NCBI GenBank assembly: GCA_903857495.1
Contig: CAIOFF010000005.1
Coordinates: 1-64,000 of the forward strand
DNA from: an uncultured Holophagaceae bacterium
Lineage (GTDB): Bacteria > Acidobacteriota > Holophagae > Holophagales > Holophagaceae
Reading direction: 5' to 3'
DNA length: 64,000 nt
Shown here: positions 51,690-59,949 of the stretch, in pieces
Layout of the letters: each line of letters begins with the position of its first letter
Numbering within the stretch: position 1 is the stretch's first letter
Made by a program: the position numbers and the translations under genes
Notes under the pieces: generated by a model
Seen by the model: the letters and a program-made list of their open reading frames with translations, nothing else
What the model was told of the DNA's origin: nothing
Databases searched by the model: none

Positions 51690-51746
51690 TAAGTCCTTGC
51701 GATAACAGCTCTCTGTGCCATGGATCACAAGTATTCCTACTTAGGT
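51690..51746. promoter_or_regulatory. Inverted repeat upstream of the hemerythrin-Nfn gene
   Basis: ACCTAAGT (51690-51697) and its exact complement ACTTAGGT (51739-51746) flank 41 bp in the AT-rich gap before the gene at 51805. The second arm runs into TTTT. It may be an operator pair or a leader hairpin. Confidence 0.4.
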
Positions 51747-51804
51747 TTTTAGACAAAGAAATCAGGACCTGAACATCTCATGCTGAATGGATCTGGAGGC
51801 ATCC

Positions 51805-54582
51805 ATGTCCAACTCTGCCCCGAAGTTGATCAGCTCTGGCAACCTGCCGACGCCCAACTGGCACGCCACACACGAAGAAGCCCTGGGCCGCCTGACCCGG
51901 ATGTCCGAAGCCCTGGTCGCCAGCGACTGGACGGGTGTGGATGCCGGCGCCAAGTGGATCTACGAGGTGCTCCGACCCCACAACGAGGCTGAGGAGCGCG
52001 AGCTCTTCCCGCTGCTGGAGGAGATCGGCGCCGAGTCCCTGCTGCAGCGCCTCTTCGAGGACCACCGGCAGATGTGGGACCTGACCCTGCAGCTGCTGGC
52101 CGAGATCAACGAGGGCCAGGTCCGCGCGCCCCGCTCGCTGACCCTGCTGGGCCAGCGGCTGGTGGACCTGATCCGCGACCACATCGAGGCCGAGGACTAC
52201 CTCATGCTGCCCCTCCTCAAGGGCAAGTCGCTCTATGCCTCCGATGCGGAGACCCAGGACGGCTACCTGATCCTGGAGAAGAAGCTCATCGCCCCGGAGA
52301 CCTGGTCCTTCATCGTCCAGGCCCCCCAGGTGGCCCGCGGCCGCAAGCCGGGCCAGTTCTTCATGGTCGCCCCCTTCCCGGAGAGTGAGCGCATTCCCCT
52401 CACCCTGGCCGGTGGCGACGCGCGCAAGGGCTACATCCACTTCATCATGCAGGAAGTCGGTGCCACCACCCAGGCCATGGGCAAGCTCAGCGCCGGCGAC
52501 CGCCTCTACGCCGTGGCCGGCCCCATGGGCACCCCCACCGAGATCGTCGAGGAAGGCACCATCGTGCTGATGGCGGGCGGCTACGGCTCTGCCGCCATCC
52601 TGCCTGCGGCCGAGGAGCTCCACGCCCAGGGCCGCCGCGTCATCACCATCCTCGGCGGCCGCAGCAAGGAGCGCGTGCTGCTGGCGGACGAGCTGGGCGC
52701 GGCCTCGGCCGAGCTCATCGTCACCACCGATGACGGCACCCTGGGCCGCCAGGGCCTGGTCACCGACGCCCTCAAGGACGTCATCGCCCGGGAGCCCGTC
52801 GCCCAGGTGGTCGCCGTGGGCCCCCTGCCCATGATGCGCGCCGTGGCCGACCTGACGAAGCCCCACGAGATCTTCACCCTGGTCAGCCTCAACGCCCTGA
52901 TGGTCGACGGCACCGGCATGTGCGGCGGCTGCCGCGTCTCCGTGGGCGGCCAGACCAAGTTCGCCTGCTTCGACGGCCCGGACTTCGACGGCCACAAGGT
53001 GGACTTCAACATGCTGCGCATGCGGCAGGACTGGTACAAGTCCGAGGAGAAGGACATCTGCAGCCCCGAGGACTGCAAGATCGGCCGCGTGGCCGCCACG
53101 GGTCCCGTGGACTACTCGCAGTACTTGAACGAGCCCGTCACTGACCTCGACTGGAAGAACCTGGACCTGAACACCATCAAGCCCAGCCAGAAGATGAAGA
53201 TCCCCCGCCAGGCCATGGCCTGCCAGCCGCCCGAGCTGCGTGTCTGCAACTTCGACGAGGTCAGCCTCGGCCTGTCGGCCGAGCAGGCCAAGCTGGAAGC
53301 CGCCCGCTGCATCATGTGCAAGCACCCCGCCTGCATCGACGGCTGCCCCGTCAGCATCGACATCCCGGCCTTCCTCATGGAGATCGTCAAGGGTGATCCC
53401 CAGGGCGCCGCCCGCGTCATCAAGCAGAGCTCGCCCCTGGGCTCGGTCTGCGGCCGGGTCTGCCCCCAGGAGAAGCAGTGCGAGATCAAGTGCGTCATCG
53501 GCATCAAGGGTGAGCCCGTCTCCATCGGCCGCCTCGAGCGCTTCGCCGCGGACTCCATGCTCGGCTCCACGGAGCTGCCGCCCGTCGAGGCCGCCACGGG
53601 CAAGAAGGTCGCCGTCATCGGCGCGGGCCCCGCGGGCCTCACCGTCGCCGGCGAGCTCATCAAGAAGGGCCACCAGGTCACGGTCTACGACGCCCTGCAC
53701 AAGCCGGGCGGCGTGATGCTCTACGGCATCCCCGAGTTCCGCCTGCCCAACAAGATCGTGGACACGGAAGTGGACACCCTCCGGCGCCTGGGCGTGAAGT
53801 TCGTCATGAACACCCTGATCGGCCGCAGCATGACCCTGGACGACCTGCGCAAGGAGAATGACGCCATCTTCATGGGCACCGGCGCCGGCCTGCCGAAGAT
53901 GATGGGGATTGCCGGCGAGGAGTTCAAGGGCGTCTACACCGCCAACGAGTTCCTCACCCGCATCAACCTCATGCGCGCCGACCTGTTCCCGGAATACAGC
54001 ACCCCGGTGACCATCGGCAAGAATGTGATCATCGTGGGCGCCGGCAACACCGCCATGGACGCCGCCCGCGCCGCCCGCCGCATGGGCGCCGAGCATGTGA
54101 CGGTGGTCTACCGCCGCACCATCAAGGAGTCCACGGCTCGCGGCGAGGAGCTCGAGCACGCCCACGAGGAGGGCGTTGAGTTCAAGTTCCTCACCACTCC
54201 CGTGCAGCTCCACGGCAGCGAGAAGGGCTGGATGACCCACGCCGAGTGCGCCGTGATGGAGCTGGGCGAGCCCGGTCCCGACGGCCGCCGCAGCCCCAAG
54301 ATGACCGACGAGCGCATCATGATCCCCTGCGAGACCCTGGTGGTCGCGCTGGGCTTTGATGTGAACCCGCTCATCGCCATGACCGAGAAGGGCCTCCGGA
54401 CCCTCAAGGGCGGCGTCGTGGTGGTCAATGAAGAGACCGGCGAGACCTCCCTGCCTGGCGTCTATGCCGGCGGCGATGTCATCACCGGCGGCGCCACCGT
54501 CATCCTGGCCATGGGCCAGGGCCGCCGGGCCGCGGGAGCCATCCATGAGCGCCTCATGGGCGCCGCGGTGTCCAGCTCCTGA
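51805..54582 (+). CDS. Hemerythrin-NfnA-NfnB fusion: O2-linked ferredoxin/NAD(P)H oxidoreductase
   Basis: A 925-aa chain with three parts. (1) Residues about 15-140: HHE hemerythrin, with His20/23, His59-x3-Glu63, His87 and His126-x3-Glu130 as likely di-iron ligands. (2) About 150-415: NfnA/SudB-like FAD and NAD subunit with GQFFMVAPFPESERIPLTLA, MAGGYGSAAILP and the [2Fe-2S] part GMCGGCRV with ACFDGPDFDGHKVDF. (3) About 450-925: NfnB/GltD-like subunit with two [4Fe-4S] motifs (Cys502/505/510/514 and Cys549/553/559/563), GAGPAG and an NADP-binding GAGNTAMDAARAARR. NfnAB couples NADH, NADPH and ferredoxin by electron bifurcation. GGAGG precedes the ATG at 51805. The three-part fusion is unusual; nifJ follows. 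Confidence 0.92.
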   Translation: MSNSAPKLISSGNLPTPNWHATHEEALGRLTRMSEALVASDWTGVDAGAKWIYEVLRPHNEAEERELFPLLEEIGAESLLQRLFEDHRQMWDLTLQLLAEINEGQVRAPRSLTLLGQRLVDLIRDHIEAEDYLMLPLLKGKSLYASDAETQDGYLILEKKLIAPETWSFIVQAPQVARGRKPGQFFMVAPFPESERIPLTLAGGDARKGYIHFIMQEVGATTQAMGKLSAGDRLYAVAGPMGTPTEIVEEGTIVLMAGGYGSAAILPAAEELHAQGRRVITILGGRSKERVLLADELGAASAELIVTTDDGTLGRQGLVTDALKDVIAREPVAQVVAVGPLPMMRAVADLTKPHEIFTLVSLNALMVDGTGMCGGCRVSVGGQTKFACFDGPDFDGHKVDFNMLRMRQDWYKSEEKDICSPEDCKIGRVAATGPVDYSQYLNEPVTDLDWKNLDLNTIKPSQKMKIPRQAMACQPPELRVCNFDEVSLGLSAEQAKLEAARCIMCKHPACIDGCPVSIDIPAFLMEIVKGDPQGAARVIKQSSPLGSVCGRVCPQEKQCEIKCVIGIKGEPVSIGRLERFAADSMLGSTELPPVEAATGKKVAVIGAGPAGLTVAGELIKKGHQVTVYDALHKPGGVMLYGIPEFRLPNKIVDTEVDTLRRLGVKFVMNTLIGRSMTLDDLRKENDAIFMGTGAGLPKMMGIAGEEFKGVYTANEFLTRINLMRADLFPEYSTPVTIGKNVIIVGAGNTAMDAARAARRMGAEHVTVVYRRTIKESTARGEELEHAHEEGVEFKFLTTPVQLHGSEKGWMTHAECAVMELGEPGPDGRRSPKMTDERIMIPCETLVVALGFDVNPLIAMTEKGLRTLKGGVVVVNEETGETSLPGVYAGGDVITGGATVILAMGQGRRAAGAIHERLMGAAVSSS

Positions 54583-54618
54583 CGCCGGAATTTCCAATGA
54601 AGACGACCGATTTATCAT

Positions 54619-54696: not shown

Positions 54697-58257
<3,561 letters not shown>

Positions 58258-58264
58258 GGCAGCC

Positions 58265-59257
58265 ATGGATCTCAAAACCTCGTACCTCGGTCTCCAGCTG
58301 GCCCATCCCCTGATGGCCGGTGCCTCGCCCATGGTTGACGACATGGGCATGGTCAAGCGCCTCGAAGACGCCGGTGCCTCCGGCATCGTGATGCACTCCC
58401 TCTTCGAGGAGCAGATCACCCGCGAAGAGCAGGGCACGCTCATGGACATGGAGCTGCACGCCAACTCCAACGCCGAAGCCGTCTCCTACTTCCCCCAGCC
58501 CGATGACTTCCGCCTCGGGCCCGAGCGCTACCTCGAACAGCTCCGCCGCATCAAGGAGGCCGTGGCCGTTCCGGTCATCGCCTCCCTGAACGGCACCACC
58601 GCCGCGGGCTGGCTGCACTATGCCCAGCTCATGGAGCAGGCCGGCGCCGATGCGCTCGAGCTGAACGTCTACTACATCGCCACGGACGCCAAGGAGTCCT
58701 CCGCCGATGTGGAGAAGCGCACCCTCGACGTGGTCCGCACCGTGAAGGCCCAGGTGAAGATCCCCGTCGCCGTGAAGCTCTCGCCCTTCTTCTCCTCCCT
58801 GGCGCACTTCGCCGCGGAGCTGGAGGCGGCCGGTGCCGATGGTCTGGTGCTCTTCAACCGGTTCTTCCAGCCCGACATCAACGTGGAGGAGCTGCTGGCG
58901 GAACCCAGCCTGCAGCTGTCCGGTCCCTCGGACCTGCTGCTCCGCCTCCGCTGGCTCGCGGTGCTCCACGGACGCATCAAGGGCAGCCTCGCGGTCACCG
59001 GCGGTGTCCATGACGGCATCGGCGCCCTGAAGGCCGTCATGGCCGGCGCAGACGCCGTCCAGATGGTGTCCGCCCTGCTGATCCACGGACCCGAGCGGCT
59101 GGCCCAGACCCGCGCGACCCTGGCCGAGTGGCTGGAGGAGCACGAGTACGAGTCCCTGGCCCAGGCCCGGGGCAGCATGAGCCTGCTGAAGAGCCCGAAT
59201 CCCCAGGCCTTCACCCGCGCCAACTACATGCGGATCCTCAACGGGTGGAAGCCCTGA
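58265..59257 (+). CDS. Dihydroorotate dehydrogenase-like protein
   Basis: A 330-aa FMN-type TIM barrel: LGLQLAHPLMAGASPMVDD at the start, PVIASLNGTTAAGW, GADALELNVYYI, VAVKLSPFFSSL and SLAVTGGVHDGIGALKAVMAGADAVQ with the phosphate-binding loop. A Cys or Ser base at the dihydroorotate position is not evident. Proteins of this kind are often found next to nifJ and probably do not serve pyrimidine synthesis. Seven bases after the nifJ stop, so co-transcribed. Followed by a strong terminator. Confidence 0.85.
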   Translation: MDLKTSYLGLQLAHPLMAGASPMVDDMGMVKRLEDAGASGIVMHSLFEEQITREEQGTLMDMELHANSNAEAVSYFPQPDDFRLGPERYLEQLRRIKEAVAVPVIASLNGTTAAGWLHYAQLMEQAGADALELNVYYIATDAKESSADVEKRTLDVVRTVKAQVKIPVAVKLSPFFSSLAHFAAELEAAGADGLVLFNRFFQPDINVEELLAEPSLQLSGPSDLLLRLRWLAVLHGRIKGSLAVTGGVHDGIGALKAVMAGADAVQMVSALLIHGPERLAQTRATLAEWLEEHEYESLAQARGSMSLLKSPNPQAFTRANYMRILNGWKP

Positions 59258-59308: not shown

Positions 59309-59346
59309 GCGTTGTGCAATTCATCACACGGAATCAATGTCATTGA

Positions 59347-59371: not shown

Positions 59372-59397
59372 CGACCCATCCATCTTCGTAGGTGACT

Positions 59398-59949
59398 ATG
59401 CTACCTCTTTCCCAGTCTTCTGGTTACGCGGTCCTGGCCATGAGCTGCCTCCAGGATCCCGGCGGCAAGCCCACCCTGGTGGTCGATGTGGCCGCCCGCA
59501 CGGGTTTCCCGCGCCCCTACCTGTCCAAGATGATCCACAAGCTGGCCAAGGTCGGCCTGGTGATGGCCAAGCGCGGCAACAAGGGCGGCGTCGTGCTGGC
59601 CCTCGCCGCCAAGGAGATCACCCTGGACCTCATCGCCGAGGCCGTGGACGGCTCCGAGTGGCGCAACCAGTGCCTGCTCGGCTTCAAGGACTGCTCGGAC
59701 GAGCGGGCCTGCCCCTCCCACACCTTCTGGAAGGCCGAGCGCGATCACATCCACCGCTGCCTGAAGGACATCTCCCTGGAGGAGATCCGCACCTTCGAGC
59801 AGGCCAGCCGCACCTGGCGCCTGGCCGACGCGCTGCCTGAGAAGAAGCTCAAGCCCCGCGTCAAGAAGGCTGCCAAGCCCGCCACCAAGAAGGCTCCCGC
59901 CAAGGCCGCCAAGCCCGCCGTCAAGAAGGCTGTCGCCAAGAAGGTGTGA
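59398..59949 (+). CDS. Rrf2/IscR-type regulator with histone-H1-like tail
   Basis: A 183-aa regulator. Residues 1-130 form the Rrf2 winged helix (MLPLSQSSGYAVLAMSCLQD, RTGFPRPYLSKMIHKLAKVG, KRGNKGGVVLAL) and include three cysteines, CLLGFKDCSDERAC, the ligand pattern of Fe-S-sensing IscR/NsrR. The last ~35 residues (from KKLKPRVKKAAKP) are only Lys, Ala, Pro and Val, like bacterial H1 homologues, and should bind DNA non-specifically or compact it. The ATG at 59398 has AGGTG upstream. Its position after the nifJ terminator suggests that it controls the adjacent ferredoxin enzymes. Confidence 0.9.
   Translation: MLPLSQSSGYAVLAMSCLQDPGGKPTLVVDVAARTGFPRPYLSKMIHKLAKVGLVMAKRGNKGGVVLALAAKEITLDLIAEAVDGSEWRNQCLLGFKDCSDERACPSHTFWKAERDHIHRCLKDISLEEIRTFEQASRTWRLADALPEKKLKPRVKKAAKPATKKAPAKAAKPAVKKAVAKKV

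Follow-up and report, generated by a model that had tools for sequence, protein, structure and literature searches.

Nfn couples ferredoxin, NADH and NADP+, and pyruvate:ferredoxin oxidoreductase (PFOR) yields reduced ferredoxin; both enzymes are generally oxygen-sensitive, and bifurcating enzymes are usually discussed as tools of strict anaerobes. Geothrix and its relatives are iron-reducing soil bacteria. In a 64,000-nucleotide stretch of contig CAIOFF010000005.1 from an uncultured Holophagaceae bacterium (hereafter the window), a single gene had been predicted, from the letters alone, to join a hemerythrin to both NfnA and NfnB in one polypeptide. This raises the question of whether such a protein exists and, if so, what a hemerythrin-like domain would do on an oxygen-sensitive flavoenzyme.

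The reading of 51805–54582 as one intact open reading frame, with a predicted N-terminal hemerythrin-like (HHE) bundle followed by complete NfnA and NfnB parts, holds (Table 1). An in-frame ATG also lies at 51787, but relatives keep the start at ATG 51805, which has a GGAGG element in front of it. On the 925-residue protein, Pfam places the HHE domain (45.8 bits, curated cut-off 25.3), DHODB_Fe-S_bind at residues 364–400, Fer4_20 at 480–585 and Pyr_redox_2 at 600–906. An antisense frame of 946 amino acids (51778–54618) mirrors the high-GC coding strand, and nothing marks it as a gene.

Table 1. Features of the fusion locus, in window coordinates
Feature	Coordinates	Strand	Basis or remark
Conserved palindrome TGTGnCATGnnTCACAA (also given as TGTGnCATGnnTCACA)	51714..51730	.	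upstream of fusion gene, kept in genus
HHE-NfnA-NfnB fusion gene	51805..54582	+	925 aa plus stop, ATG start, single open frame
Hemerythrin-like HHE domain, residues 18-138	51856..52218	+	PF01814 E 1e-11
HHE-NfnA linker, residues 140-153	52222..52263	+	predicted disordered, pLDDT <50 at 140-152, full-length model
NfnA part, residues 154-420: FAD/NAD domain and [2Fe-2S] site	52264..53064	+	PRK06222, 5jca_S, 4ylf_A
DGTGMCGGCRx10C, [2Fe-2S] motif with Asp ligand (D368, C373, C376, C388)	52906..52968	+	regex match to published Nfn motif (PMC6405883)
NfnA-NfnB linker, residues 421-470	53065..53214	+	low pLDDT 417-473
NfnB part, residues 471-918: two [4Fe-4S] clusters, bifurcating FAD, NADPH site	53215..54558	+	TIGR01316, 4ylf_B
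RCx2Cx4Cx3CPV, first [4Fe-4S] motif of NfnB, residues 501-516	53305..53352	+	motif from PMC6405883
GRVCPQExQCx3Cx11Gx2ER, second [4Fe-4S] motif, residues 550-579, including E578	53452..53541	+	motif match
nifJ, pyruvate:ferredoxin oxidoreductase	54697..58257	+	POR_N, POR, EKR, PFOR_II, Fer4, TPP domains
Dihydroorotate dehydrogenase-like protein (PRK07565), third gene	58265..59257	+	NF005741 431.5 bits, cut-off 303

The flavoenzyme part resembles known Nfn throughout. NfnA scores 335.6 bits against PRK06222 (cut-off 220, NCBIfam) and matches P. furiosus NfnS (5jca_S, E 2e-74) and T. maritima NfnA (4ylf_A, E 7e-59), while NfnB reaches 560 bits against TIGR01316 (cut-off 471.75, NCBIfam) and E 4e-143 against T. 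maritima NfnB (4ylf_B), the nearest solved relatives of the core being Nfn. The published a-FAD strand motif ERxPxT of NfnA (PMC6405883) is present at E195–T200, the [2Fe-2S] motif deviates in having Phe instead of Val after the last Cys, and the Rossmann motifs of NfnB for FAD and NADPH are found as GAGPAG at 606 and GAGNTAMDAAR at 745. Two four-Cys clusters (C502/505/510/514 and C549/553/559/563) lie in the NfnB part. The x11 spacing of the second [4Fe-4S] motif, not x13, is shared with P. furiosus, and E578 aligns with NfnL E126 of that organism, a Glu cluster ligand; when it is replaced, the two electron paths become uncoupled (PMC9503767). Judged by cofactor motifs, the protein carries a full Nfn core with putative bifurcating NADPH/NADH/ferredoxin activity, and the fusion gene is the only place in its own genome that matches the NfnA part. 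Of the three other genera first compared, two showed their lowest conservation in the NfnA–NfnB linker.

The putative iron ligands of the HHE domain (H23, H59, E63, H87, H126 and E130) do not vary in any of the 55 distinct sequences that span HHE and the NfnA junction, the split-off HHE of locus L129 included (see below), and E64 is likewise identical in all of them. The original prediction had named H59xxxE63, H126xxxE130, GMCGGC, ACFDGP and eight Cys, all of which lie where it put them, and none of the 55 sequences has lost a ligand. Canonical O2-binding and most sensor hemerythrins carry the motif H-HxxxE-HxxxH-HxxxxD (PMC9388753). Residue 91, the place of the fifth His of HxxxH, is Trp in 53 of the 55 sequences, and a regular-expression search found no HxxxH anywhere in the window's protein; these ligands rule out a canonical five-His O2-carrier hemerythrin. 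Residue 131 is Glu in 51 sequences and Asp in four, the window protein among the latter, so that the last motif here is HxxxE[E/D] and the carboxylate partly meets the last canonical element (HxxxxD). The label ‘hemerythrin’ is accordingly right for a PF01814 HHE domain with its full ligand set, but not in the sense of the canonical O2-binding motif.

The predicted iron site instead matches H-HxxxE-H-HxxxE, the 4His/2Glu pattern of BRUTUS and YtfE/RIC, whose characterised members react with O2, H2O2, NO or nitrite (PMC12022348, PMC9052748). The BRUTUS domains bind di-iron, which O2 and H2O2 oxidise reversibly, and an E-to-A substitution abolishes iron binding (PMC12022348). In YtfE the ligands are H84, H129xxxE133, H160 and H204xxxE208 (PMC9268430); the protein is tied to Fe-S repair and is also reported as a nitrite reductase (PMC9052748). 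HHE identity between genera drops to 52–62% with the six ligands unchanged, so selection acts on the metal site. Median dN/dS is 0.28 for HHE and 0.15 for both NfnA and NfnB (purifying selection): the HHE domain is faster-evolving, yet constrained.

Modelled alone (residues 15–148), the HHE domain forms a confident four-helix bundle (pLDDT 90.6). In the full-length model (pTM 0.49) the HHE–NfnA linker is disordered, so the model fixes neither the place of HHE over the Nfn core nor how far the di-iron site lies from the flavin or [2Fe-2S]. With the HHE model, Foldseek returned no match at E <= 0.001. A VIA fold ranking put 3cax (PF0695, Z 14.4) and 2p0n (NMB1532, 13.2) on top, YtfE below both, and DcrH hemerythrin at 12.0 amid unrelated helical bundles at 11–12.6; the ranking thus does not separate HHE subtypes. 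YtfE was the sole hemerythrin-like protein among PDB sequence matches, at a non-significant E of 0.2–0.4.

Within the open-access literature searched (subscription papers were outside its scope), we found no paper joining hemerythrin and Nfn, and a version of NfnAB with an N-terminal HHE appears undescribed there, in line with the original prediction, for which no described triple fusion of this type was known. Its premise that NfnA and NfnB are normally separate and lack a di-iron domain needs narrowing: Nfn in one chain is precedented, as is Nfn with an iron-binding helical domain. Two-subunit Nfn (T. maritima 4YLF, P. furiosus NfnI 5JCA) has all the cofactor motifs and end-to-end homology of both subunits, but consists of two chains and lacks the extra ~140-residue N-terminal HHE. 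The published ‘Pattern B’ of Clostridium autoethanogenum, Bacteroidetes and Fusobacteria (PMC6405883; NCBIfam PRK12778) has the NfnA–NfnB order in one polypeptide but no HHE, and the fusion scores 945 bits against it, below the cut-off of 1103. The curated family NF009413/PRK12775 (NfnA–NfnB–ferritin) likewise combines NfnAB with an iron-binding helical domain; the fusion matches it through the NfnAB part only (765.6 bits), far below the cut-off of 1895 and so outside the class. The ferritin domain, known by name, presumably lies in the C-terminal quarter of that profile, which the fusion leaves unmatched, whereas the HHE of the fusion is N-terminal.

Other parallels come from the di-iron side. 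BRUTUS and YtfE/RIC, and similarly MsmHr, share the ligand pattern and the four-helix bundle but are not joined to an electron-bifurcating flavoenzyme. The [FeFe] hydrogenase-rubrerythrin of C. perfringens (HydR), in which H2 electrons reduce H2O2 (PMC11926857), also holds a low-potential Fe-S oxidoreductase and a di-iron module in one chain; it differs in its H2 donor, rubrerythrin-type di-iron site and rubredoxin relays, and its function was measured, whereas the fusion is known from sequence. A Trichomonas flavodiiron-rubredoxin-reductase fusion is described as a self-sufficient oxidase (PMC9364112).

The arrangement is a family trait. Of 77 sampled genomes from the window's family (Holophagaceae), 57, in seven genera, have HHE in frame with NfnA: 44/47 in the window's genus, g4 1/1, g3 1/2, g146 3/5, g144 2/4, g143 1/1 and g2 5/6, several of these loci being cut by contig ends. 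In two sister families it was found in none of 16 genomes, and in a 247-genome draw across the phylum the HHE-reaching matches, among the matches listed, came from the window's family alone. The frame was intact in 21/21 first-sampled carrier genomes (genus and family), in keeping with the predicted single polypeptide and not with a frameshift artefact. Named carriers are Geothrix fermentans DSM 14018 (L082), G. rubra, G. limicola and other Holophagaceae, cultured strains included. A scan of the collection for two short peptide patterns, which could miss divergent fusions, gave no HHE–Nfn fusion in other phyla. Two MAG records labelled Bacillota (L086) and Deltaproteobacteria (L090) contain Holophagaceae-type sequence; both labels are probably wrong, since L086 and the family genome G250 encode identical proteins here.

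Two exceptions offer natural comparisons. Genus g141 (G247, G253, also present as L099 in a named MAG, and G261) has an orthologous Nfn without HHE that starts ~20–40 residues before the NfnA domain. Its genomes hold 0–1 hemerythrin domains, a heme-copper oxidase in 0/4 and cytochrome bd in 3/4, while in nearly all fusion genomes the heme-copper oxidase family genes number one to five, accompanied by several hemerythrins. This co-absence is supportive but weak evidence for oxidant protection, g141 being a single lineage with two genomes <70% complete. In the tree the HHE-bearing rows, taken as one side, have a support of 53/87, which does not separate a single gain of HHE from its loss in g141, and the absence could be primitive. 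The second exception is G272 (L129/L146). Its nfnA and nfnB are split and more distantly related (49%), and a free-standing HHE gene (L129 3817–4317, contig C16) lies ~50 bp behind them. The HHE protein ends in GAGYLMLPA, like the NfnA start, with no further Nfn behind, an apparent fission that left HHE beside the nfnAB operon and suggests that the HHE–Nfn tie outlasts the fusion; the locus comes from one metagenome assembly, 8% contaminated, the HHE gene lying 127 bp from the contig end.

Most family genomes are rich in hemerythrin domains: G000 has 11 matches, and the number rises to 23 in G198. At 36–39% identity, the closest relatives that we found for the fused HHE are stand-alone HHE proteins of ~270 amino acids whose N-terminal part has no Pfam match (L096 7611–8423, L097 7117–8417), two HHE genes being adjacent in L097. 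G262 has a second, diverged HHE-NfnAB copy beside the usual one (L150 5358–8150), with Trp91 changed and with neighbours that by eye resemble fatty-acid/CoA genes.

Gene order ties the fusion to PFOR. The succession of fusion gene, nifJ and dihydroorotate dehydrogenase-like gene is kept in the window's genus, and in Geothrix the fusion gene probably heads an operon with nifJ. In L085 the order is nifJ, dihydroorotate dehydrogenase-like gene, HHE-Nfn; since the genes are still together, the linkage holds despite the rearrangement. Other organisms, too, are known to have PFOR near nfn (PMC6405883). In L077 the next gene encodes a thiol peroxidase-like redoxin, with a rubrerythrin adjoining; other genera have differing neighbours, with typA often close by.

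The palindrome upstream of the fusion gene is a candidate regulator site resembling the CRP/FNR-family or Rex type; it is the only 0-mismatch match in the genome, the others genome-wide being weak. Crp/Fnr-type regulators adjoin nfn genes in other genera (L149 9634–10341, L130 3959–4822), which fits the CRP-like character of the palindrome in front of the Geothrix gene. Directly behind the operon lies an Rrf2-family transcription regulator (59392–59949), which reaches the cut-off of neither IscR nor NsrR; over 150 aligned residues, its identity between Geothrix loci is 88–100%. A second palindrome, TGTGN8CACA at 59313, precedes the Rrf2 gene.

The reading we favour, tentatively and as somewhat short of probable, is that HHE is a flexibly tethered, oxidant-reactive di-iron module that protects the O2-sensitive Nfn/PFOR pair and is probably re-reduced by Nfn electrons. 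Nfn would use PFOR-derived reduced ferredoxin for NADPH; the 4His/2Glu site of HHE, holding di-iron, would in its reduced form react with O2, H2O2 or NO near Nfn and PFOR and be re-reduced by electrons from the Nfn flavin/Fe-S centres or by NAD(P)H. HHE would then serve the enzyme as its own oxidant sink and, in second place, as a redox brake, and O2 sensing, as originally proposed, is one option among several. This reading draws on the complete Nfn core with Nfn as its closest solved relatives and a single NfnA match in the genome, on the six invariant ligands in an otherwise diverging domain, on the oxidation of the same ligand type by O2 and H2O2 in BRUTUS, and on HydR and the Trichomonas protein as precedents for electron and di-iron modules in one chain. 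The oxidases and hemerythrins of fusion genomes compared with g141, the redoxin and rubrerythrin neighbours in L077 and the free HHE behind nfnA-nfnB in G272 point the same way. It is weakened by the absence from the fusion of the rubredoxin-like relay of rubrerythrin chimeras, by the cytochrome bd that g141 keeps, by neighbours that vary between genera, by the single assembly behind L129 and by the unstructured linker of the model.

The redox state of HHE might alternatively gate or signal to Nfn, with no turnover. Hemerythrin domains fused to enzymes do serve as redox switches (PMC9388753), an N-terminal position and flexible linker suit a regulatory module, and the existence of HHE-less Nfn in the family indicates that HHE is dispensable for the core. 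Yet the five-His motif of most characterised sensors is missing and no conserved docking surface emerged; we regard such a gate as rather unlikely.

Less likely again is a YtfE/RIC-like role in which HHE handles NO or nitrite, or gives iron to rebuild the Fe-S clusters of Nfn and PFOR. The ligand pattern equals that of YtfE (PMC9268430), YtfE is the one hemerythrin-like sequence match despite its lack of significance, COX1-family frames of 746–903 amino acids in fusion genomes are by length probably NO reductases, and an Rrf2-family regulator follows the operon; but PF0695 and NMB1532 are closer folds than YtfE, and the Rrf2 protein falls below both the IscR and the NsrR cut-off. We consider it improbable that the fusion serves stability, dimerisation or iron sensing without a redox link to Nfn: HHE domains with this motif have been proposed to act as iron sensors in BRUTUS (PMC12022348) and the modelled linker offers no defined interface, but the six ligands are strictly invariant across seven genera in a fusion to a redox enzyme. 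That mis-assembly or frame read-through united unrelated genes is next to inconceivable, the identical frame in 57 independent genomes of seven genera, cultured strains among them, refuting it with no point found in its favour.

Returning to the oxidant-reactive module, a stronger form, possible but doubtful, is a self-contained enzyme in which a bifurcating Nfn feeds its own non-canonical di-iron domain; it would couple the NAD(P)H/ferredoxin balance to O2, H2O2 or NO reduction and may enable PFOR-based anaerobic metabolism at oxic–anoxic boundaries. The cultured G. fermentans DSM 14018 carries the fusion, and the HHE-less Nfn of g141 and one apparent split-off HHE provide natural comparisons. 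A family-wide, ligand-perfect predicted di-iron domain on Nfn in oxidase-bearing bacteria gives a handle on how Nfn copes with oxidants.
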